Assembly: GCF_024505165.1 (NCBI RefSeq)
Contig: NZ_JANIBK010000036.1
Location: 1-32,104, forward strand
Direction of reading: 5' to 3'
DNA from: Methylomonas rivi
GTDB lineage: Bacteria > Pseudomonadota > Gammaproteobacteria > Methylococcales > Methylomonadaceae
DNA: 32,104 bases
Part shown: positions 2,048-19,568 of the stretch, one piece after another
How positions within the stretch are numbered: the first letter of the stretch is position 1
How the letters are laid out: each line of letters begins with the position of its first letter
Notes under the pieces: model-generated
What the model was told of the DNA's origin: nothing
The model's database searches: none
Seen by the model: only the letters and a program-made list of their open reading frames with translations
Position numbers and translations under genes: made by a program

Positions 2048-2216
2048 GTCTATCAAGACCCGTCGGCAGTCGCATCCGGCAGACCATGAACAAATGATGG
2101 GATCAAACATCACCCAAAAATTTAAAAAATAATTGTCCAGTTAATCCTGTTTGTTTCGTTATTTAAGTAACGGCGGGCATGCAGCCTGTCATTTGCTTAA
2201 AACAAAGGAGATGAAC

Positions 2217-4559
2217 ATGAAACAAGCTGTATCGGGCGGGTCGCGTCGCAATCAAACTGTATTCGCCTTAATCCTGCTGGCGGCAATGGAAATTTCCGCG
2301 GCCGACGAGGCGGTTATCGAGCTGGATATTCCGGCGCAACCCCTGGCCGCAACCCTGGACAGTCTGGCAAAAATCAGCCATATCAAACTCATCTATGCCG
2401 ATGACACGGTGCAAGGCTTACAGGCCGGCGCCTTGAAAGGCAGGTTGAGCGTGCAACAGGCGCTGAAACAGGTATTGACCGAAAATGGCTTGCAATTCGA
2501 AGCCGTGGGCGAAGGCATGCTGGCGGTGAAAGCCGCGCCCAAGAAGTCGTCTTCCTCGCAAGATAATTCTATCTTCGAGCTGGGGGTGGTCATCGTTAGC
2601 GATCAGGCAGAGTTCAGTAAAAAACTGACCAGCCGCGATATCGCCACCTCGGTGGATGTGATGTACGCAGACAAAATCGCCGATCAAAATGTGTTGACGG
2701 CATACGACTTGTTTCACCGCATGCCGGGCGTGCAAATCACCCAGTTCGGCCAGGGTACCACCACCGGCAAGCTGTCGTTTCGCGGCTTCAACGGCGAAGG
2801 CCGGGTCAATGCGGTCAAATTGTTGATCGATGGGGTGCCCAGTAATACCAACGACGGCAATATGCCTTATATCGACGCCTTGTTTCCGTTGGATATAGAG
2901 TCCATGGAAGTGGTGCGCGGCACCAACGATCCGCGTTACGGCCTGCACAACATCGCCGGCAACGTCAATATCAAAACCTCCACCGGCGGCAATTATGTCA
3001 AGGGCCGCATGAGTTACGGCAGTTTCGATACCCACGATGTTCAGACCGGTTTGGGTTACGAGAAGGACGGCTTTTCGCAAAATTATCAAATATCCTACCG
3101 TGCCGGCGGCGGCTACCGGGACCATGCCAATTCCGATAAAAACAGCTTTTCCGGTAAATGGTTTTACACGCCAGAGGACAACAAATACAAAGTGGGGCTG
3201 AGCGCCCGCTGGAGCGAGTCCGGCGCGCAAGAGCCCGGCTATCTGACCTACCAGGAGCAACTGGCCGATCCGGTGCAATCCATGGCCAGAAACGCCACCG
3301 ACGGCGGCAAGCGCACCGTGGGGCAGGTCAGCGCGCATCTGGACATCAATTTGACCGACGAGTTATTTTGGTCGAACAAGGCCTACGGTAATTTGTTCGA
3401 CGATCAGCGGCTGGTCAGATTCGACGCCTGCTGCGCGCAGGTCAGCCGCAATCGCGATGAGGTGCAATACGGCGCCATCACGTCGCTGACCTACCATCCC
3501 ACCATTAATTGGCTGGACGATTTTTCCATTGAATCCGGCTTCGATTTCGAACAACAGGAAAACAAATATTTGCAGTTCAGGACAGACAACGGCATAGCGC
3601 GCGCACCCGCCAGCTTTGCCAACATCCGCAACGACGAGAAATGGAACTTCCTGATTTACGGTGGCTACGTGCAAGCGGTGATCAAACCCACCAAGTGGCT
3701 GAAAATCACGCCGGGTTACCGGGCCGACCAAGTGGACGGTAACTTCAGCAACTTTAGGCCCACCGTCTCGGGCGATTTTCCGGTCAACGATTACGGCACC
3801 ATCTCGCAGCCGAAAATCGGCGCGGTCGTCACGCCCGTCGAGGGCTATAGCCTGTACGGCAACTGGGGACGCACCTTTCAGATCGGCGTCGGCAGCGCCA
3901 CCTTCAGAAACCTCAATGCCGCCAACGTCAAGCCGTCGATCAACGAAGGTTGGGAAGTGGGTTTCAAACTGAATCCGGTGGATTGGGCCGAGGCGCGGGT
4001 AGCCTATTGGGTGCAGGACGCCACCAATGAGTTGAGCCGGAATCTGGCCAGTGCCGAGTCGACCTCCGTCGGCGCCACCAAGCGGCAGGGTGTGGATATC
4101 GAGGCCAAAATCAGTCCTGTCGAACGGGTCGGTATTTGGGCCGCTTATTCCCTGCAGGAGGCCGTGGTGAAAAAAGCCCCGCCGTTCGTGCAATTTTCCA
4201 GCGAATATGCGGTAGGCAACCAGATCGTCAATACCCCCAATTACCTGTTTACCGCCGGTATCGATTATCAAGTTACCCCGCAGCTGCGTTCATCGCTGTG
4301 GGCCAGCGGGCAGGGCAATTTTTATGTCGACCAGGCCAATCGGCGCGGCAAACACGGCGAATACGCGCTGCTGAATCTGGATTTGGGCTATCAAGTCACC
4401 AAGGAAGTGGAGTTGCAGTTCCAGGCCAAAAACCTGACGGACGCGCAACGGGATTACTTGTGGTTCGATGAAACCTTCGGCAGTATTGCGCAAATAGAAT
4501 ATTCCCCCGCCGACGGCCGCGCGTTTTACGGTGCCGTCAACGTCAAGTTCGACTATTAA
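2217..4559 (+). CDS. TonB-dependent siderophore receptor with STN signalling domain (FecA/FpvA type)
   Basis: Outer-membrane receptor (780 aa) for energised import of a ferric chelate or similar ligand. The start at 2217 is chosen because AAGGAG (2205-2210) lies six bases before it; an ATG at 2211 touches the ribosome site and is less likely. Order: signal peptide (ALILLAAMEISAADE), STN secretin/TonB short N-terminal domain (about residues 30-105, LDIPAQPLAATLDSLAKIS), plug domain (about 140-265, with LLIDGVPS and IESMEVVRGTNDPRYG), then a 22-strand-type barrel ending in the aromatic residues VKFDY. STN domains usually talk to a FecR-type anti-sigma factor, but no FecI/FecR pair is next to it. 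The PepSY gene starts three bases after its stop, so the two are probably one transcript. The exact ligand is unknown. Confidence 0.9.
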   Translation: MKQAVSGGSRRNQTVFALILLAAMEISAADEAVIELDIPAQPLAATLDSLAKISHIKLIYADDTVQGLQAGALKGRLSVQQALKQVLTENGLQFEAVGEGMLAVKAAPKKSSSSQDNSIFELGVVIVSDQAEFSKKLTSRDIATSVDVMYADKIADQNVLTAYDLFHRMPGVQITQFGQGTTTGKLSFRGFNGEGRVNAVKLLIDGVPSNTNDGNMPYIDALFPLDIESMEVVRGTNDPRYGLHNIAGNVNIKTSTGGNYVKGRMSYGSFDTHDVQTGLGYEKDGFSQNYQISYRAGGGYRDHANSDKNSFSGKWFYTPEDNKYKVGLSARWSESGAQEPGYLTYQEQLADPVQSMARNATDGGKRTVGQVSAHLDINLTDELFWSNKAYGNLFDDQRLVRFDACCAQVSRNRDEVQYGAITSLTYHPTINWLDDFSIESGFDFEQQENKYLQFRTDNGIARAPASFANIRNDEKWNFLIYGGYVQAVIKPTKWLKITPGYRADQVDGNFSNFRPTVSGDFPVNDYGTISQPKIGAVVTPVEGYSLYGNWGRTFQIGVGSATFRNLNAANVKPSINEGWEVGFKLNPVDWAEARVAYWVQDATNELSRNLASAESTSVGATKRQGVDIEAKISPVERVGIWAAYSLQEAVVKKAPPFVQFSSEYAVGNQIVNTPNYLFTAGIDYQVTPQLRSSLWASGQGNFYVDQANRRGKHGEYALLNLDLGYQVTKEVELQFQAKNLTDAQRDYLWFDETFGSIAQIEYSPADGRAFYGAVNVKFDY

Positions 4560-6068: not shown

Positions 6069-6518
6069 TCAACTGTGCGGGTGAAAATGGGCGTGGTGGG
6101 CATAGTGAAGCTCGGCGATTTTTACCGGAATAAGGTTAAGCGCGCTATGCCGGATACCGGTTTCGGCGGCGAGCTTTTCGGTAAGGGTGCGGATTTGCTG
6201 GGTCAAGCCGCGTAGAAACAAGGTTTCCAGGCAGTCGTTATGATCGAGATGAACACGCATCGATGAAACCACCAGATCGTGGGCTTCGTGTTGCAGATGG
6301 GTTACCCGTTCGGCCAGATTACGCTCGTGATGGTTATAGACAAACGAGAAGGTGGCGACGCTGTATAGGGTCTGATCTTGATCCAGACGCCTGGTTTCGA
6401 TTTCTTTGCGGAGTAAATCCCGAACCGCTTCGGAGCGATTGTTGTAACCGCGCGCTTCGATCCAGCGATCGAAATCCGCGGCCAATTCGTCGCTGAGAGA
6501 GATAGTAAAACGTTCCAA
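6069..6518 (-). CDS. nikR: NikR-family nickel-responsive transcriptional regulator (His-rich tail, one altered ligand)
   Basis: Ribbon-helix-helix DNA-binding domain (residues 1-45: ERFTISLSDEL, RGYNNRSEAVRDLLR), then the ACT-like nickel-binding domain. The start is taken as TTG at 6518: it gives the family's usual N-terminus, and AGGAG (6526-6530, minus strand) lies seven bases upstream. The ATG at 6569 would add 17 unlike residues. Aligned by eye to E. coli NikR, His76 corresponds to H77, His89 to H90 and Cys95 to C96, but His87 is replaced by Arg88 (SSMRVHLDHNDC). The C-terminus runs past the usual end in a His-rich tail (HYAHHAHFHPHS), giving 149 residues against about 133. It probably represses nickel uptake genes. 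It diverges from the envelope operon starting at 6650, which ends in a nickel permease. Confidence 0.85.
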   Translation of the reverse strand: MERFTISLSDELAADFDRWIEARGYNNRSEAVRDLLRKEIETRRLDQDQTLYSVATFSFVYNHHERNLAERVTHLQHEAHDLVVSSMRVHLDHNDCLETLFLRGLTQQIRTLTEKLAAETGIRHSALNLIPVKIAELHYAHHAHFHPHS

Positions 6519-6649
6519 GGGTGGGCTCCTGTTTTTTATTGTTATCGGTGGGGCGGAATTATAACGCAACGCTTGATTAAGCTCGCCGGTCGGGCTGAAA
6601 GCGCGGCGGGTCCGATTACCGATTTAAAATTTTGTTATTAGGGGCGTAC
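6519..6649. promoter_or_regulatory. Divergent promoter region between nikR and the envelope operon
   Basis: 131 bases separate the two starts. An AT-rich segment (GATTTAAAATTTTGTTATTA, 6621-6640) precedes the plus-strand gene, and AATTATAAC lies near 6556, which suits promoters for both directions. No GTATGA/TCATAC dyad is visible here, so direct NikR control at this site is not supported. Confidence 0.4.
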
Positions 6650-9729: not shown

Positions 9730-9774
9730 GCGGTTTTTTGCTTGAACCTTTACCACCAAAATCAGGAGGCGGAA

Positions 9775-10332
9775 ATGACGAACAAGGCAAGATTTTTTCA
9801 ATTACTCGGTTTGGCAAGCATGGCAAACCCGCTTATTGCCGATGCCCACCCTTGGCACAATCCATCCGAGGCTATCGGTTTTGTCGGCGGCATGATTCAT
9901 CCGTTAACCGGTTCCGACCACATTATCACCCTGTTGGTCGTGGGCTTTTGGCTAGCCCGCGGCACCGGATGGGCGATCGCGGCCTTGCCGCTGCTGTTTG
10001 TGGCGTTGATGATAATCGGCGGCGGTTTAACCCTCATCCCCATCGAGATTGCCCATGCGGAAAATATCATGATCCTTTCCGCCACCCTATTAGGGCTGAT
10101 GTTGCTTTCCAGATATAAGGTTTCGCCGCTTATGGCCGCGTTGGTTGTAGGTAATCTGGCTTTATTTCACGGGTATGTGCATGCCTACGACATTTGGTTG
10201 GACAGCGATGCCATTGCCTACACCGCGGGATTTGCGTTGTCGACGCTGATGGTAATCGCCGTTGGCGTCAGCATCAGTAAAGCGTTCGAACGTTTGGCGC
10301 TTCAAAACGATAGTCCTTTTAATAGCCGATAA
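9775..10332 (+). CDS. HupE/UreJ-family nickel permease
   Basis: 185 residues from ATG 9775, preceded by AGGAGG (9764-9769); an upstream frame from 9742 is not needed. The family's signature is present as GGMIHPLTGSDHI (residues 38-50), where His and Asp are thought to bind nickel, along with a second His cluster, FHGYVHAYD. A signal-like first helix ends with IADAHPWHNP, as in HupE, which has a cleaved or N-terminal metal-binding segment. About six membrane helices in total. HupE/UreJ proteins import nickel for hydrogenase or urease. A NikR-family gene is at the other end of this cluster, supporting nickel rather than cobalt. It ends the close-spaced run. Confidence 0.85.
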   Translation: MTNKARFFQLLGLASMANPLIADAHPWHNPSEAIGFVGGMIHPLTGSDHIITLLVVGFWLARGTGWAIAALPLLFVALMIIGGGLTLIPIEIAHAENIMILSATLLGLMLLSRYKVSPLMAALVVGNLALFHGYVHAYDIWLDSDAIAYTAGFALSTLMVIAVGVSISKAFERLALQNDSPFNSR

Positions 10333-13350: not shown

Positions 13351-13482
13351 CAGCTTCGATTCAGGCTGCTTGGTTAAATTAGGCAAAGATTTAGCACAGC
13401 AGCGCGTTCTCTCGGCGGCATGCCGGCGGGTAGAAGTTCCGATTGAGCGGCGCTTTCAATTTCAGTCGCCATGAGGAAAAAA

Positions 13483-15741
13483 ATGAAGCGGAACAAACAG
13501 GGGTTCTTATCGGTTTTGTTGTTGAACGTAATCGTGCACTGCGCGGTAGCGGAATCGGCCAATCCGGACAAAACAGGCAAGCAGAACGACAATAACCCCG
13601 AGGCCCTGCCCAGCGTGGAAGTCGAGGAAAGCGTCCATAAAGCCGAGACCTTTTCCGGCTCGACTTCCGTGATCGATAAGGCAACCTTGGAACGCGACCA
13701 GGTTTTCACCGTCAACGAAGCCTTGCGCAAGGCGCCGGGCGTCTACGTGCGCGACGAGGAAGGCTTCGGTCTGCGGCCGAATATCGCCTTCCGCGGCCAG
13801 AACCCCTTCCGTTCCACCAAGGTGCTGTTTCTGGAAGACGGCATTCCGTTCAACTTCGCCCCTTACGGCGACAACGACATTTACTACCACCCGCCCATCG
13901 AACGCTACGACGGCATCGAAATGTACAAGGGCGCCGATTTGACTCAGTTCGGCCCGCAAACCATCAACGGCGCGGTCAATTATCTGACGCCGAAAGTGCC
14001 GGTCGAACCCGGTGGCTTCGTCAGCTTTATGGGCGGCAACCGGGATTACCGTAACGGCCACCTCCGTTACGGCGGCATGGCCAAGAATGTCAACGGCCTG
14101 GACGCGGTGGGCGGGGTGGTCGATTACATTCATAAGGAAGGCATGGGAAACCGGGACAACACCTTCGCTCAGGTCGACGACGCCAATCTGAAAAGCATCA
14201 TCGATTTCGACGCCCGCAACCGCTTGACCTTGCGCGGCGACTTTTACCGCCAGGACGAGCAAGGCGCGGCCTTCGGCTTGACGGAAGCGGAATACCGCAC
14301 TATAGGGGCGCGCTACAATCCGGACAAGAATGCCAGTTTTATTAACGACCGCTGGTCTACCTCGGCCACCTACGAGCATAGCTTCAATAACGATGTGACG
14401 CTGGAAACTAGCTTTTACTGGTCGTCCTACGAGCGTAATTGGTGGCGGCAGCAGAATGAGTTTCCCACCGAGAATCAATGCCAAGCGAGTTATCCAGCTT
14501 ACCAATCCAATCGACTAAACGGTATTCCCATCGATATGGACTTATGTGCTTATAACGTCGGCCGCAAGCGTAATTACGAAACCTGGGGCGTGGCGCCGAC
14601 CTTGCACGCCAAGCACGATTTGTTCGGCATCGAAAGCCAGTTGGATGCCGGTTTCCGCGCTCATTTCGAGAACCAGCACCGGGAAATGATCAGGGGAAAT
14701 TCGCCCAACGCCCGGGACGGCCAGTTGTTGGAAAAAAACGATCGTTTTGCCGATGCCTATTCGGGCTTCGTGCAAAACAAGTTCATTTGGAACGACTGGA
14801 CGCTTACGCCGGGCGTCCGGGTCGAATCCGTCAGCTACGAGCGCAAGAATTTGTTAAACGGCACGGCGGGCCAAAGCAGTTTGACCGAAATCTTGCCGTC
14901 GTTCGCGATGACCTACAGCCCTATCGATGAAGCCACTTTGTTTTTCGGTATTCACCGCGGTTTTGCCCCGCCCAGGGTAGAGGACGCCGTTTACAACGAT
15001 ACCGGAGGCTCCGCGGAAATCGGTCCGGAAATCAGCTGGAATACCGAGTTCGGTATCAGGGCAAGACCTACGGCCGGCGTCAAAACCGAGTTGACGTATT
15101 TTCACAACGACTTCGATGCCCTGACGGTATTGGGTACGGTCGGCGGCGGTACCGTGCCGGTGGCGCAAGGCAAGGCCTTGTACGAAGGCATCGAAATGAT
15201 GGCGCGGGCCGATTTCGGCGATGTGCTCAACTGGACGCACAATCCTTATGCGCAGATCGCTTATATGTGGTTGCCGACCGCGGAGACCACGGAGGCATTC
15301 CGTTGCGTGCCTTTGTCCAGCGGCGCGCTGCCGGCTAGTTGCCCGGGGGGTAATGTGTTCGGCTCCGCGGCGGGCAAGCGGGCGCCGTATGCCCCGGAAA
15401 GCCTGTTGGCCGCAACCTTGGGTTACTCGCATCCCAGCGGTTTCGATGCCCATTTGGAAGCGGTGTTCGTCAGCGAACAATATGCCGATTTCATGAACTT
15501 GGAGAGCGGCACCGATCATCCCGATGGGCCGAACAGCCTCAACGCCCGCACCGGTACCTACGGCAAAATCAACGATTACGTGGTGGTCAACTTCACCACC
15601 TCGTATAAGGTACGGAAGGATTTGACCTTGTACGTGTCGATGAAAAACATGCTGGACAACACCTATATCGTTGACCGGGTGCGCGGTATTCAAGCCGGCA
15701 TGCCGAGATTGGTGCAGGCCGGCTTCAAATACGAATTTTAA
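13483..15741 (+). CDS. TonB-dependent receptor without STN domain (FecA-like barrel)
   Basis: 752 residues from ATG 13483, where GAGGA precedes by five bases; an ATG at 13471 is less well placed. A signal peptide (LSVLLLNVIVHCAVAES) is followed by a linker and a TonB-box-like segment (LPSVEVEES), the plug (about 65-175, LRKAPGVYVRDEEGFGLRPNIAFRG given in parts: LRKAPGVYVRDEEG and KVLFLEDGIPFN), and a barrel with external-loop Cys pairs (QCQASYP...DLCAYN, RCVPL...SCPGG). It ends with the aromatic GFKYEF. Compared with the receptor at 2217 it lacks the STN domain, so it does not signal through FecR. The plug and barrel resemble FecA-type ferric citrate/dicitrate receptors, but the ligand is unproven. 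Confidence 0.9.
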   Translation: MKRNKQGFLSVLLLNVIVHCAVAESANPDKTGKQNDNNPEALPSVEVEESVHKAETFSGSTSVIDKATLERDQVFTVNEALRKAPGVYVRDEEGFGLRPNIAFRGQNPFRSTKVLFLEDGIPFNFAPYGDNDIYYHPPIERYDGIEMYKGADLTQFGPQTINGAVNYLTPKVPVEPGGFVSFMGGNRDYRNGHLRYGGMAKNVNGLDAVGGVVDYIHKEGMGNRDNTFAQVDDANLKSIIDFDARNRLTLRGDFYRQDEQGAAFGLTEAEYRTIGARYNPDKNASFINDRWSTSATYEHSFNNDVTLETSFYWSSYERNWWRQQNEFPTENQCQASYPAYQSNRLNGIPIDMDLCAYNVGRKRNYETWGVAPTLHAKHDLFGIESQLDAGFRAHFENQHREMIRGNSPNARDGQLLEKNDRFADAYSGFVQNKFIWNDWTLTPGVRVESVSYERKNLLNGTAGQSSLTEILPSFAMTYSPIDEATLFFGIHRGFAPPRVEDAVYNDTGGSAEIGPEISWNTEFGIRARPTAGVKTELTYFHNDFDALTVLGTVGGGTVPVAQGKALYEGIEMMARADFGDVLNWTHNPYAQIAYMWLPTAETTEAFRCVPLSSGALPASCPGGNVFGSAAGKRAPYAPESLLAATLGYSHPSGFDAHLEAVFVSEQYADFMNLESGTDHPDGPNSLNARTGTYGKINDYVVVNFTTSYKVRKDLTLYVSMKNMLDNTYIVDRVRGIQAGMPRLVQAGFKYEF

Positions 15742-16066: not shown

Positions 16067-18229
16067 TCATAAGCAGTAAACATTCATCTCTTTCCAGTGA
16101 CTGTTAAATGCCATATCGGAATGCTGAATATGTTGAGCCCATTTACCGATGAATTCCTGCAAATCCTGCGCTTGCCAATTGTCATGCTCTATTTTCGCTG
16201 TTATGGCTAGCAATTGTTCCAGCATCAGTTCGTGTTCCTTGGCATGACTTTTGGTCGAATGAAAGCCTGTGCGATACATTAAGCTTTCTTCTTCAGCGAA
16301 GTGCGCTTTCACATGCTGCTGTAATTCGGACAGGGTTTCCAACAAGGTGAGTTTATGCGGAGACGAGAGTAGTTTTTCCGCCAGTTCAAAAAAATCCTTA
16401 TGCTCCCGGTCTATTTTTTCGTCGCCCAGCGCGTAACTGTCCTGCCAGACGAAATGCACCATGCCGCCGGGCGATGCGGGTTTTACAAAGCTATCCAGCC
16501 TATGTTTGGCCAGATTGTCCGGCGTTTTAGTCAACGGCTTTTTGTAAACGAAGCATTGTCTGGCCGCGTGATAGGCATTATCGGTATAAAAATTGGCATA
16601 CATTTGGGTTAATTCGAATTTCCGATAAGCGGCCAAGGGTTTGCTGATTTCATCGATACAGCGGGTATTGGCTTTATCGGTCAACAGTCTTTGCAATTCG
16701 GCCGGATTGCCGACATAGGTGTCGACCAGATGTTTGACTTGGGCAGTAAAAATCGAATGTTGTTTATCCAGCACTTTATCGACCAGGCCTAGTTGCCAGG
16801 CTTTTTTGGCGCTGATGGGCAAGCGCTGTTCGGTTAATTGCGTGGCCGCGGTTTGGCCGACGCGTTTGGGCAATAAATAAGTCCAGTATTCGGAACCGTA
16901 CAGTTCGCCCATGTTTTTGTAATGCGGATTGAAAATCACCCCGTCCCTGACCACGACTTTATCCGGAGCAACGGCCAAAATCGCGCCGCCGGCGCCGGCG
17001 TTGCCGGAAATGGCAGCCAGCGTTAATTTATCCAGGGTGGTGATAATTTGATAAATCAGATCGTCCATGGCATTGATGTTTTGCCAGGATTCGTCGGCAG
17101 GGTCGTCCGCTGCTTCGATATGGTTCAGGTGGATGCCGTTGGACCAAGTGTCTTCGCCGCCCATCAAAACAATGGCTTTGACATTCAGGGTGGCGAGATG
17201 CCGATACACCGACAGCAGCCGTCGGCATTGCGCGGTGCTCATGGCGCCGTTATGAAACGGAAAATAAAGATAAGCCGCCTCGCCCAGCAACTCGTACCAG
17301 ACCTCCTGGCAGGGCAGTTGCCGGCCGGGTTGGGTGTAATCAATCTCCAGGGTTTTGATGGGTTTGCTTAGCCAGCTTTGCAGACCGGACTGAGGTTTTG
17401 GCCAACAATCCCGCAAGGCTTGAGTAGCCGGCAGTTTGATGCCCTTGCCATCGGCCAGTTTGGGTTTTAAATGCCCGATCCAGATTGCGCCGTCAACGGT
17501 GGCGCGGCAAATGGCCTGATCGGTCATGGCGATAATTTCGCCGGGCTTGCCGCTTAGCTGGGTTTCCTTATGGGCATTGAACAGATAAAACGGTTGGCCG
17601 AACATTTCATCCAATACGCCGGGGCAGCCGTCGGCAGCATGAATATGTCCGAGAATGTCGTCGGTTTTATGTTTTTTCCAGTCAAGTTTACGCTCGCTTT
17701 GTTTCATCTGCGGGCGCAACTGACCTTTAATGCCCGGTTTGCTGTATTCCAAAGGTTCCGGTTGAAAGTTGGGCGCATCGAAATAGGTTAACGCCTCCCA
17801 TAGGCACTCGACCGCCGCCTGAGTCACTTCGCGGTTAAACACGCTGCTTTTCGTGGCGGGACGTAAAGGGAAAGTTTTACTGGCCCAAATGGCGCCACTA
17901 TCCATTTCATCGGCCGCTGCCAGCAATGTGACGCCCCATTCTTTCTCGCCCTGCTGTATCGCCCAGTCTAAAGACGCGGGGCCGCGATCGCCCTTGATGC
18001 CGGGATGGACGATCAGGCAGGGATAGTGCTGATAGATGGTGGCCGGTAGCCGCTTGGTCAGGAACGGGCATAGAATCAAATTGGGTTGAAAAAGCTGCAC
18101 GCCTTCCAGCAATTGGGCTTCGTCACCCAGATGCAGTTCGACGGAAACCTCGTACCCGGCATCGTTCAGTTCGGTATAAAAGCGCTGGGTGAGTCCGGAA
18201 AATGCGGTGGAAATCAGTAATATTTTCAT
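16067..18229 (-). CDS. hypX: HypX-type hydrogenase maturation protein with C-terminal hemerythrin domain
   Basis: 720 residues from ATG 18229, with AGGAG seven bases upstream; an ATG at 18295 is less well placed. HypX makes the active-site CO of [NiFe] hydrogenases from formyl-tetrahydrofolate when cells grow in air. Domain one (about 1-265) is formyltransferase-like: HPGIKGDRGPASLDW and DEMDSGAIW. Domain two (about 300-545) is an enoyl-CoA hydratase/isomerase fold: GGEDTWSNGIHL and the oxyanion-type GNAGAGGAIL. After a link region comes an extra module, about 590-720, with all bacteriohemerythrin di-iron ligands: H610 (REHKDF), H643 and E647 (HFAEE), H662 and H666 (HAKEH), H700 and D705 (HIQHSD). 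HypX usually ends before this module. The regulator gene 87 bases upstream is on the same strand. Confidence 0.88.
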   Translation of the reverse strand: MKILLISTAFSGLTQRFYTELNDAGYEVSVELHLGDEAQLLEGVQLFQPNLILCPFLTKRLPATIYQHYPCLIVHPGIKGDRGPASLDWAIQQGEKEWGVTLLAAADEMDSGAIWASKTFPLRPATKSSVFNREVTQAAVECLWEALTYFDAPNFQPEPLEYSKPGIKGQLRPQMKQSERKLDWKKHKTDDILGHIHAADGCPGVLDEMFGQPFYLFNAHKETQLSGKPGEIIAMTDQAICRATVDGAIWIGHLKPKLADGKGIKLPATQALRDCWPKPQSGLQSWLSKPIKTLEIDYTQPGRQLPCQEVWYELLGEAAYLYFPFHNGAMSTAQCRRLLSVYRHLATLNVKAIVLMGGEDTWSNGIHLNHIEAADDPADESWQNINAMDDLIYQIITTLDKLTLAAISGNAGAGGAILAVAPDKVVVRDGVIFNPHYKNMGELYGSEYWTYLLPKRVGQTAATQLTEQRLPISAKKAWQLGLVDKVLDKQHSIFTAQVKHLVDTYVGNPAELQRLLTDKANTRCIDEISKPLAAYRKFELTQMYANFYTDNAYHAARQCFVYKKPLTKTPDNLAKHRLDSFVKPASPGGMVHFVWQDSYALGDEKIDREHKDFFELAEKLLSSPHKLTLLETLSELQQHVKAHFAEEESLMYRTGFHSTKSHAKEHELMLEQLLAITAKIEHDNWQAQDLQEFIGKWAQHIQHSDMAFNSHWKEMNVYCL

Positions 18230-18316
18230 GTCAATCTCCTGAGTTGAGTGTTTGTTCCATTCGCAGCCAACGTCAACAAAGCATGGCCGTTGCATGTTTA
18301 AAGGTATGCCGAACGG

Positions 18317-19342
18317 TTATGCGATAGTCGAACCGCTAAAGCGTTGCCGGTAATTTTGCGGATTAACCCCCAACTGACGTATGAATGCGCGCCGCATGCG
18401 TTCCGAATCTTTAAAGCCGGTTTTTTCCGCGATTGATTCCACGGCGAGATCGCCGGTTTCAAGTAAAAATCTGGCGCGGTCGATGCGGGTTATTTCCACG
18501 AATTTGGCGGGCGTCATGCCGGTTTCGGCTGAAAAAAGGCGGGCGAAATTACGGGTGCTCATCGCCATGCGGGTAGCCAGGGCTTCGACATGTAAATCCT
18601 GATGGATATGTTCCATGATCCAAACCTGCAGATCCCGCAGATCCGGGCGATGGCTGGCTTCATTCGTCAAATAACTGCTGAATTGCGACTGGCCGCCGGG
18701 ACGCTTCAAAAACACCACCAAATAACGCGCCACATATAACGCCAAATCCCGACCCCAATCCTCCTCCAGCAAGGCCAGGGCCAAATCGATTCCCGAGGTG
18801 ATACCGCCCGAGGTGAAAATATGGCCGTCTTTAATAAAGATATAATCCGGCTCGACTTGAATGCCGGGGTAGTTTTTGGCAAGGGGTTGGCAAAAATCCC
18901 AGTGGGTAGTGGCTTTGCGGCCTTCCAGCAACCCGGCTTCGGCCAGTAGAAAAGCCCCGGTGCACACTGATACCAGGCGGCGTACCTTGGGGGACATGGC
19001 TCTAATCCAGGCAATCAGCTTTTCATTGTTTAACGCATTTTTTATGCGGCCGCCCGGAATCAACAAGGTATCGAACGCGGCGTTCGGAGCGTCGTAGATG
19101 TCTTCGGCCACGATCTGTAAACCCGACATTGTGGTAATCGGGCCTGGCGTTTCGGCAAGCAGTTTGAGGGTATAAATGTTTTGCTGGGTAATGCCTTGGT
19201 GGATCAGGCCCAGGTTGGCAAAATTAAATACTTCGAACGGGCCGGTAATGTCTAAAACCTCCACGTCCGGAAACGCCACGATGCCAATGGTTCTGGATTG
19301 ATATTTAAAGCTATCGGGCTTGGAAAAACTGAAAGTCGTCAT
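18317..19342 (-). CDS. GlxA-family AraC-type regulator with DJ-1/PfpI domain
   Basis: 341 residues from ATG 19342, preceded by AGAGGTG; an upstream ATG at 19390 would add 16 residues. The N-terminal domain (about 15-190) is of the class I glutamine amidotransferase/DJ-1 type: TIGIVAFPDVEVLDITGPFE given in parts as FPDVEVLDITGP, then LLIPGGR and the nucleophile-elbow SVCTGAFLLAEAGLL with Cys. The C-terminal AraC domain (about 240-335) has two helix-turn-helix units, MAMSTRNFARLFSAETGMTP and KTGFKDSERMRRAFIRQLG, and ends NPQNYRQRF. Such proteins sense small amine or betaine-like metabolites or act without a known ligand. The position just upstream of hypX on the same strand suggests shared transcription or local control. 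Confidence 0.88.
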   Translation of the reverse strand: MTTFSFSKPDSFKYQSRTIGIVAFPDVEVLDITGPFEVFNFANLGLIHQGITQQNIYTLKLLAETPGPITTMSGLQIVAEDIYDAPNAAFDTLLIPGGRIKNALNNEKLIAWIRAMSPKVRRLVSVCTGAFLLAEAGLLEGRKATTHWDFCQPLAKNYPGIQVEPDYIFIKDGHIFTSGGITSGIDLALALLEEDWGRDLALYVARYLVVFLKRPGGQSQFSSYLTNEASHRPDLRDLQVWIMEHIHQDLHVEALATRMAMSTRNFARLFSAETGMTPAKFVEITRIDRARFLLETGDLAVESIAEKTGFKDSERMRRAFIRQLGVNPQNYRQRFSGSTIA

Positions 19343-19568
19343 GGCGACACCTCTATGGCTGAGCGTGCTAACATCATGTCTAATTACCATGACTTATACA
19401 ATGACAATCATCCCTCGTTTTCCGCCAGCCATTAACGTTGACGTTTTATGCTGTCGCGAAAGGGCTGCGGCCTAACTTTGCCTTCGAATCGGCTAAACTT
19501 TAACGCCGGGCTGCCCAGATGTTTGTTTGGGCCGATTTTTATCGATACTCATCTACTACATTAATCCC

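Follow-up and report, generated by a model that had tools for sequence, protein, structure and literature searches.

HypX fused to a hemerythrin domain in methanotrophs: a proposed CO synthase tuned by O2

Introduction

Release of CO from the folate pool has been demonstrated for the bacterial enzyme HypX. The accessible part of a 2025 review presents HypX only as a hydrogenase accessory: under oxic conditions it provides [NiFe] hydrogenases with their CO ligand by a route from N10-formyl-tetrahydrofolate (N10-formyl-THF) through formyl-CoA to CO (PMC12134894). The proposed catalytic residues of the Aquifex enzyme are H74, D80, D109, Y416 and E426 in the available portion of the report on it (PMC6802093). 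Two further groups of proteins bear on the present work. No HypX fusion is among the ten bhr genes that PMC12607906 lists for Methylomonas denitrificans FJG1 in its Table 1, and the terms HypX, hydrogenase, formyl and enoyl-CoA are absent from the available main text of that paper. CoxC of Afipia carboxidovorans, a LytTR protein, represses CO oxidation genes, and its MHYT domain detects CO by means of copper, O2 acting as an antagonist, as described in the accessible part of PMC11347149. In the open-access literature we found no description of a HypX-hemerythrin fusion, which may be in print in subscription papers or preprints beyond this scope, and nothing that brings HypX together with MHYT proteins or with a methanotroph.

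Here we describe a hypX gene from Methylomonas rivi that lies in a stretch of 32,104 nucleotides (contig NZ_JANIBK010000036.1), referred to below as the window. Compared with HypX/HoxX of Aquifex (6j0p) and Cupriavidus necator, the encoded protein has the same two domains at full length, with 42% identity to 6j0p_A in the Foldseek alignment and the catalytic residues kept, but it adds a hemerythrin region of 130 residues, has a GlxA-type regulator beside it and has no hyp or hydrogenase genes nearby. The added domain shares its fold and the full set of di-iron ligands with the bacteriohemerythrins of methanotrophs (4xpx and 4xq1, which we take to be the Methylococcus protein, and bhr of M. denitrificans FJG1), although it scores too low to pass the bacteriohemerythrin model NF033749. 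Hemerythrin is likewise a fused module in DcrH-Hr, presumably the hemerythrin domain of a chemotaxis receptor (2awc, 2avk and 3waq were among the Foldseek hits), but the partner of DcrH-Hr is a receptor whereas the partner in the window is a putative gas-making enzyme.

The fusion gene and its HypX part

The original prediction placed a HypX-hemerythrin fusion at positions 16067-18229 of the window. These coordinates are right. The strand had not been stated and is the minus strand; the plus strand of the same interval is interrupted by stops. The features of the locus are as follows.

16067..18229, minus strand: hypX-hemerythrin fusion gene, 720 aa, with ATG at 18229 and a TGA stop ending at 16067
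18236..18240, minus strand: likely ribosome-binding site AGGAG, which precedes the ATG at 18229 and favors the 720-aa start
17420..18229, minus strand: formyltransferase-like domain, residues 1-270 (Pfam Formyl_trans_N and Formyl_trans_C; H75, D81 and D110)
16550..17365, minus strand: enoyl-CoA-hydratase-like domain, the proposed formyl-CoA decarbonylase, residues 289-560 (Pfam ECH_1; Y437 and E447)
16421..16495, minus strand: linker, residues 579-603, with low pLDDT
16094..16453, minus strand: hemerythrin domain, residues 593-712, a predicted four-helix bundle (H610, H643, E647, H662, H666, H700 and D705)
18317..19390, minus strand: GlxA-type regulator, 357 aa (Pfam DJ-1/PfpI and AraC helix-turn-helix)

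HypX and hemerythrin share one uninterrupted frame, as had been claimed: the 720-aa open frame covers both, and when independent assemblies were searched for a stop or a frameshift the frame stayed open. An alternative ATG upstream, at 18295, would give a product of 742 aa; purine-rich sites like the AGGAG of the window are also found upstream of hypX in relatives. The conservation of the frame in independent assemblies, together with purifying selection on the hemerythrin domain (see below), rules out a chance or artefactual frame. An oddity of one contig or an assembly error is ruled out by the 45 complete fused copies found in 44 genomes, all of which belong to the one methanotroph family that includes Methylomonas, the genus of the window.

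The three Pfam models Formyl_trans_N, Formyl_trans_C and ECH_1 all scored above their cut-offs in the 720-aa protein. Residues 1-578 aligned over the full length of the Aquifex HypX/HoxX structure 6j0p (E 3.9e-152), and the predicted fold of this part matched the same structure with a TM of 0.95 (by target length) and an rmsd of 2.0 (Foldseek). By Pfam, PDB match and predicted fold, both HypX-defining domains are present in one chain, and the two usual domains that were expected ahead of the hemerythrin part make up a complete HypX at residues 1-578. H75, D81 and D110 correspond to Aquifex H74, D80 and D109, and Y437 and E447 to Y416 and E426. All five proposed catalytic residues were kept in the 17 fused copies of the first set (17/17), and each of them was kept in 95 or 96 of the 96 HypX proteins of at least 540 aa from 98 Methylococcales loci. 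The intact residues and fold suggest that the HypX part of the window's protein may synthesize CO.

The hemerythrin domain and the linker

Domain searches assigned the last ~130 residues to hemerythrin, in agreement with the original prediction. Pfam Hemerythrin (PF01814) matched residues 603-705 with an E of 9.5e-8 and the NCBIfam hemerythrin domain TIGR02481 matched with an E of 6.3e-20, both above cut-off, while the narrower model NF033749 gave 64.3 bits, under its cut-off of 84. The di-iron ligands of hemerythrins follow the motif H, HxxxE, HxxxH, HxxxxD, and the seven predicted ligands stand at exactly the positions that had been counted. They were kept in 17 of 17 copies of the first set and in 45 of 45 complete copies of the wider set. 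The full set is lacking in two of the 47 fused copies, one of them broken after residue 641 (G049) and the other cut short by an internal stop (G612). Judged by these ligands, a complete hemerythrin-type di-iron site is carried on the HypX chain, and this site may bind O2.

The selection on the domain was examined in ten pairs of genomes that were picked by hand for closeness and partly share genomes. The dN/dS of the hemerythrin domain was 0.025-0.085 in eight of the ten pairs and 0.24 in one (G000-G015), and it was saturated in the last (G000-G008). By this measure the hemerythrin domain is under purifying selection. In the linker region, the stretch at residues 561-592 had the highest pN in nine of the ten pairs.

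A model of the full protein was built with AlphaFold2 on 34 sequences and one of the domain alone on 12 sequences. The full-protein model had a mean pLDDT of 86.3 and a pTM of 0.77 and placed helices at residues 604-719, with low-confidence linker segments at 580-584 and 586-603. With the linker at low confidence, this model gave no sign of a face-to-face arrangement of the two active sites. Modelled alone, the hemerythrin domain formed a four-helix bundle whose first 11 Foldseek hits had TM values of 0.68-0.85. Ten of the 11 are hemerythrins by title and the remaining one, 4xpw, is presumably a mutant of the same hemerythrin series; none of the hits of the lone domain reached an E of 0.001, the best being 5.7e-3. 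The domain was ~25-39% identical to other hemerythrin matches in the genus among the matches listed.

Distribution and phylogeny of the fusion

A search of HypX homologues and a tree, both of which the original prediction had suggested, recovered the fusion in relatives, and in the samples searched it was confined to one family. HypX was found at an E of 1e-60 or better in 88 of 311 genomes of the order Methylococcales. The full-length fusion in one open frame was present in 17 of 101 relatives, including the window's genome. Across the 311 genomes, 46 full-length fused rows were obtained from 45 genomes, all in the window's family, when G612 with its internal stop is included. Named carriers include Methylomonas sp. 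SURF-2, M. methanica NCIMB 11130, Methylovulum miyakonense HT12 and Methylobacter sp. KS41; further carriers are Crenothrix and uncultured Methylococcales MAGs.

With the window's genome counted, HypX was present in 20 of 370 genomes sampled from the class and in 22 of 398 sampled from the phylum. Leaving that genome out, the 19 class and 21 phylum genomes have one in common and make 39, of which two were judged by their match rows alone. No hemerythrin followed HypX at the 37 loci scanned from these samples, where at most 21 residues follow HypX. Similarly, the hemerythrin query had no match in the HypX frames of 59 loci whose titles name no Methylococcales. A fusion common to HypX at large was thus not seen in the class, phylum and named-locus samples.

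The tree of 68 HypX rows was built quickly and carries no bootstrap values; three of its end branches are long, and four rows are odd in composition. In it, the fused copies form a single clade of 28 rows (SH-aLRT 96), 25 of them fused, with the split copy G049 counted, and three unfused, two of which come from the same genome. This clade adjoins unfused Methylococcales copies and then Methylobacterium. The fused state needs three changes on the tree; one gain and two losses would fit, although gain and loss are indistinguishable there.

The adjacent regulator and other neighbors

The GlxA-type regulator lies directly upstream of hypX on the same strand, with 87 bases between its stop and the hypX ATG. 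It was adjacent in 41 of the 47 fused loci, or 41 of the 43 with enough upstream sequence. Four of the six fused loci without it end at a contig end with less than 1 kb upstream, and the first copy of G605 and that of G612 are truly without it. The remaining 51 loci were not scored as fused and include two broken copies (G058 and G039, the latter a fused copy that is split). GlxA adjoined hypX at 28 of these; the other 23 had no GlxA neighbor, some of them at contig ends. Ten genomes were found in which this GlxA subfamily (>200 bits) is single-copy, and it adjoined a hypX every time, nine of them fused and one (G606) unfused. An alignment of the first 24 intergenic stretches revealed by eye no operator motif shared between glxA and hypX.

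No other conserved neighbor of hypX was seen in comparisons that, for most neighbors, were made only among the neighbors themselves. NikR and a HupE/UreJ-type gene are located ~6-10 kb from hypX in the window, and the close relative G015 has similar NikR and HupE-type genes by sequence. The presence of these genes would be in keeping with a nickel enzyme, for instance hydrogenase or urease.

The relation of hypX to hydrogenase genes

The HypA-E and large-subunit sequences of the window's genome were used as queries on 98 Methylococcales hypX loci, consisting of the window, 37 and 60 loci. There was no hyp or hydrogenase gene near hypX in any of the 98 within at most 8 kb per locus, a result that covers only the available flanks because contig ends cut many stretches. 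Outside the order, the same queries detected hyp or hydrogenase genes at 43 of the 59 named loci, where hypC-D-E-X is a frequent arrangement, which indicates that the result in Methylococcales was not a failure of the search. In single-contig genomes, the smallest distance read from hypX to hypD was ~156 kb (G017).

The window's genome has a match to the [NiFe] large subunit (E 2e-228) and HypD, both on other contigs, and HypA, B, C and E adjoin HypD by a reading of the frames. HypD was present in 41 of the 45 genomes with a fused gene (16/17 and 25/28), and the four without it are fragmented assemblies of 380-950 contigs. Since most fusion genomes have HypD, hydrogenase maturation in trans remains a candidate. 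As a test of function, the co-occurrence of HypX and HypD was uninformative: among 101 relatives, 24 had both, five HypX only, 50 HypD only and 22 neither, without association between the two (Fisher p 0.22). Moreover, HypD was found in 33 of 37 HypX-free members of the family, one by a short partial match, and because it is about as common there, co-occurrence with HypX says little. Of the 38 relatives that matched the large subunit below E 1e-200, 21 had no HypX.

Some genomes have HypX without either HypD or the large subunit family PF00374. Crenothrix polyspora RSM_CP1 carries an unfused HypX inside the fused clade and lacks both (G045 represents the same locus with 100% identity), and both are also absent from G053. 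Outside the order, the same was observed for Peribacillus huizhouensis, Bacillus aerolatus, four Methylobacterium, Andreprevotia and a Lysobacterales MAG. HypD was absent from ten of 18 HypX genomes of unstated completeness, all ten of which also lack PF00374; this is not a rate because the genomes were chosen largely for hypX outside hyp clusters. The original prediction had treated HypX as a hydrogenase accessory protein. While the HypD of the fusion genomes agrees with this, the 98 loci without hyp genes in the flanks covered, the adjacent regulator of a single-copy subfamily, the lack of association with HypD and the RSM_CP1 genome do not, and the assignment is not supported as stated for the window's HypX.

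A proposed mechanism and its alternatives

The fusion and its own regulator, away from hydrogenase genes, hint at CO as a controlled signal or at CO making that is tuned to O2. We propose that the protein is a CO synthase tuned by O2 that probably serves more than hydrogenase. The HypX part would move the formyl group of N10-formyl-THF to bound CoA and release CO. The tethered hemerythrin may reversibly bind O2 at its di-iron site, and the binding of O2 would alter the activity of the enzyme or the access of gas such that CO output follows O2 supply. To our knowledge hemerythrins, unlike heme proteins, are not known to bind CO, and a hemerythrin sensor would therefore escape block by the product. 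The adjacent GlxA/AraC-type regulator may set the expression of hypX. As HypX of this order was not found in hydrogenase clusters and some unfused relatives lie beside MHYT genes (see below), the CO may chiefly serve purposes other than hydrogenase maturation, the likeliest being that of a gas signal. We consider an O2-controlled CO synthase with this use of its product plausible, if somewhat short of an even chance.

A parsimonious alternative, close to the original prediction, is that an O2-tuned HypX serves hydrogenase maturation in trans; the product would be the CO ligand of [NiFe] hydrogenases made elsewhere in the genome, and the hemerythrin would switch HypX on in air or shield the CO step. 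It draws on the known role of HypX under oxic conditions (PMC12134894, accessible part), on the HypD of the fusion genomes, on the large subunit and the hyp genes elsewhere in the window's genome and on the nickel-type genes near hypX in the window and G015. On the other hand, HypD is about equally common without HypX, more than half of the genomes with a strong large-subunit match do without HypX, hyp genes were not found at any of the 98 loci in the flanks covered, the smallest distance read to hypD is ~156 kb, and the unfused RSM_CP1 in the fused clade has neither HypD nor PF00374. We regard this alternative as doubtful but deserving of serious consideration.

The hemerythrin could instead be a local store or scavenger that keeps O2 off the CO-making site or its product, or hands O2 on. 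Such a role has been proposed for the free bacteriohemerythrins of methanotrophs, and 4xpx is among the closest folds of the domain; Bhr-00 makes up more than 1% of the M. denitrificans proteome under hypoxia according to the available part of PMC12607906. However, it is in air that HypX serves as the CO route (PMC12134894, accessible part). A single site per enzyme would also be a poor store, and unfused HypX proteins of the same branch manage without the domain. We know of no report that O2 is involved in, or harmful to, either HypX step, and we consider a store or scavenger unlikely. Hemerythrin-type sites can also bind NO and change redox state, and CO synthesis might be regulated by nitrosative or redox stress sensed at the di-iron domain. 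Consistent with this, hypoxia raises some M. denitrificans hemerythrin genes only when the medium contains nitrate (PMC12607906, available part). The ligand set is nevertheless of the complete O2-carrier type, and GlxA is the only conserved neighbor seen, although nitrogen-oxide genes are possible since most neighbors are unannotated; sensing of NO or redox state is in our estimate likewise unlikely.

MHYT neighbors of unfused HypX

At 12 of the 51 loci not scored as fused, an MHYT protein is encoded ~0.9-1.2 kb behind hypX with a response regulator between them. As such neighbors occur in both methanotrophs and Bacillaceae, a possible gas sensor adjoins HypX in two phyla. There was no MHYT neighbor at any of the 47 fused loci and no match to MHYT (PF03707) in the window's genome, and the link to MHYT is for this reason indirect for the fused protein. 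Among 43 genomes of the Bacillaceae, HypX was found in one, which was the starting genome.

A broader reading, which is possible but speculative, is that HypX was recruited more than once as a dedicated synthase of a CO signal, with MHYT kinases, with MHYT-GGDEF-EAL proteins or by fusion to a CO-blind, O2-binding hemerythrin, and that CO from the one-carbon pool is a second messenger read against O2. If true, this would constitute an endogenous CO signaling circuit in bacteria. The hemerythrin site, the regulator, the lack of linkage to hydrogenase genes and the MHYT-linked relatives make bacterial signaling by self-made CO directly testable, and in methanotrophs that are harmless and in culture. 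The parallel with CoxC lies in the MHYT proteins encoded after unfused hypX in Methylococcales and two Bacillaceae. The differences are that the fused HypX has no MHYT neighbor and that the annotated outputs are histidine kinases or GGDEF-EAL: the two annotated neighbors in Methylococcales are MHYT-PAS-histidine kinases, and in P. huizhouensis and B. aerolatus hypX is followed by a gene for an MHYT-PAS-GGDEF-EAL protein.

Genes flanking hypX-hr

Two nickel-related genes lie approximately 6-10 kb from the hypX-hemerythrin fusion gene (hypX-hr), with TonB-dependent receptor genes flanking them on both sides.

Window 2151-4559: TonB-dependent receptor
Window 6069..6569, (-) strand: NikR
Window 9742..10332, (+) strand: HupE/UreJ-family gene
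Window 13471-15741: TonB-dependent receptor

By sequence, the close relative G015 has similar nickel-type genes close to its own fused gene; NikR and HupE/UreJ-type neighbors were not common to the remaining hypX stretches compared. The presence of these two genes near hypX-hr suggests a possible link to nickel.

Distribution and integrity of hypX

Nine near-complete genomes of the same genus as the window (G005, G010, G012, G013, G025, G031, G032, G034 and G036) contain HypD and a strong match to the [NiFe] large subunit without HypX. In six methanotroph genomes (G039, G049, G058, G539, G612 and G686), hypX is split or interrupted by a stop. These breaks may mean that certain lineages can do without hypX, or they may be assembly errors. 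The single-contig genome G605 carries two full fused copies, at G605:C1:127000-141000 (L216) and 2977000-2991000 (L217), the first of which lacks a GlxA neighbor and has the proposed catalytic residue D81 replaced by E.

In a single case, a Chloroflexi MAG, HypX and FolD (methylene-THF dehydrogenase/cyclohydrolase) share one 888-aa frame (L164:580-3246). This frame would link the CO synthase with a folate enzyme acting upstream of its substrate, and it could be an effect of assembly.

HypX beside MHYT proteins

MHYT-domain proteins are encoded beside HypX in two arrangements.

L147:8001-12159, Peribacillus huizhouensis: HypX, then MHYT-PAS-GGDEF-EAL protein
L166:1107-5326, Bacillus aerolatus: HypX, then MHYT-PAS-GGDEF-EAL protein
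L076:2849-10712 and L077, methanotrophs: GlxA, HypX, response regulator, MHYT kinase, response regulator, hybrid kinase

Neither HypD nor the [NiFe] large subunit was found in the two Bacillaceae genomes, which may hold a circuit from CO to c-di-GMP. The six-gene methanotroph row was assigned by Pfam for L076 and by likeness for L077.
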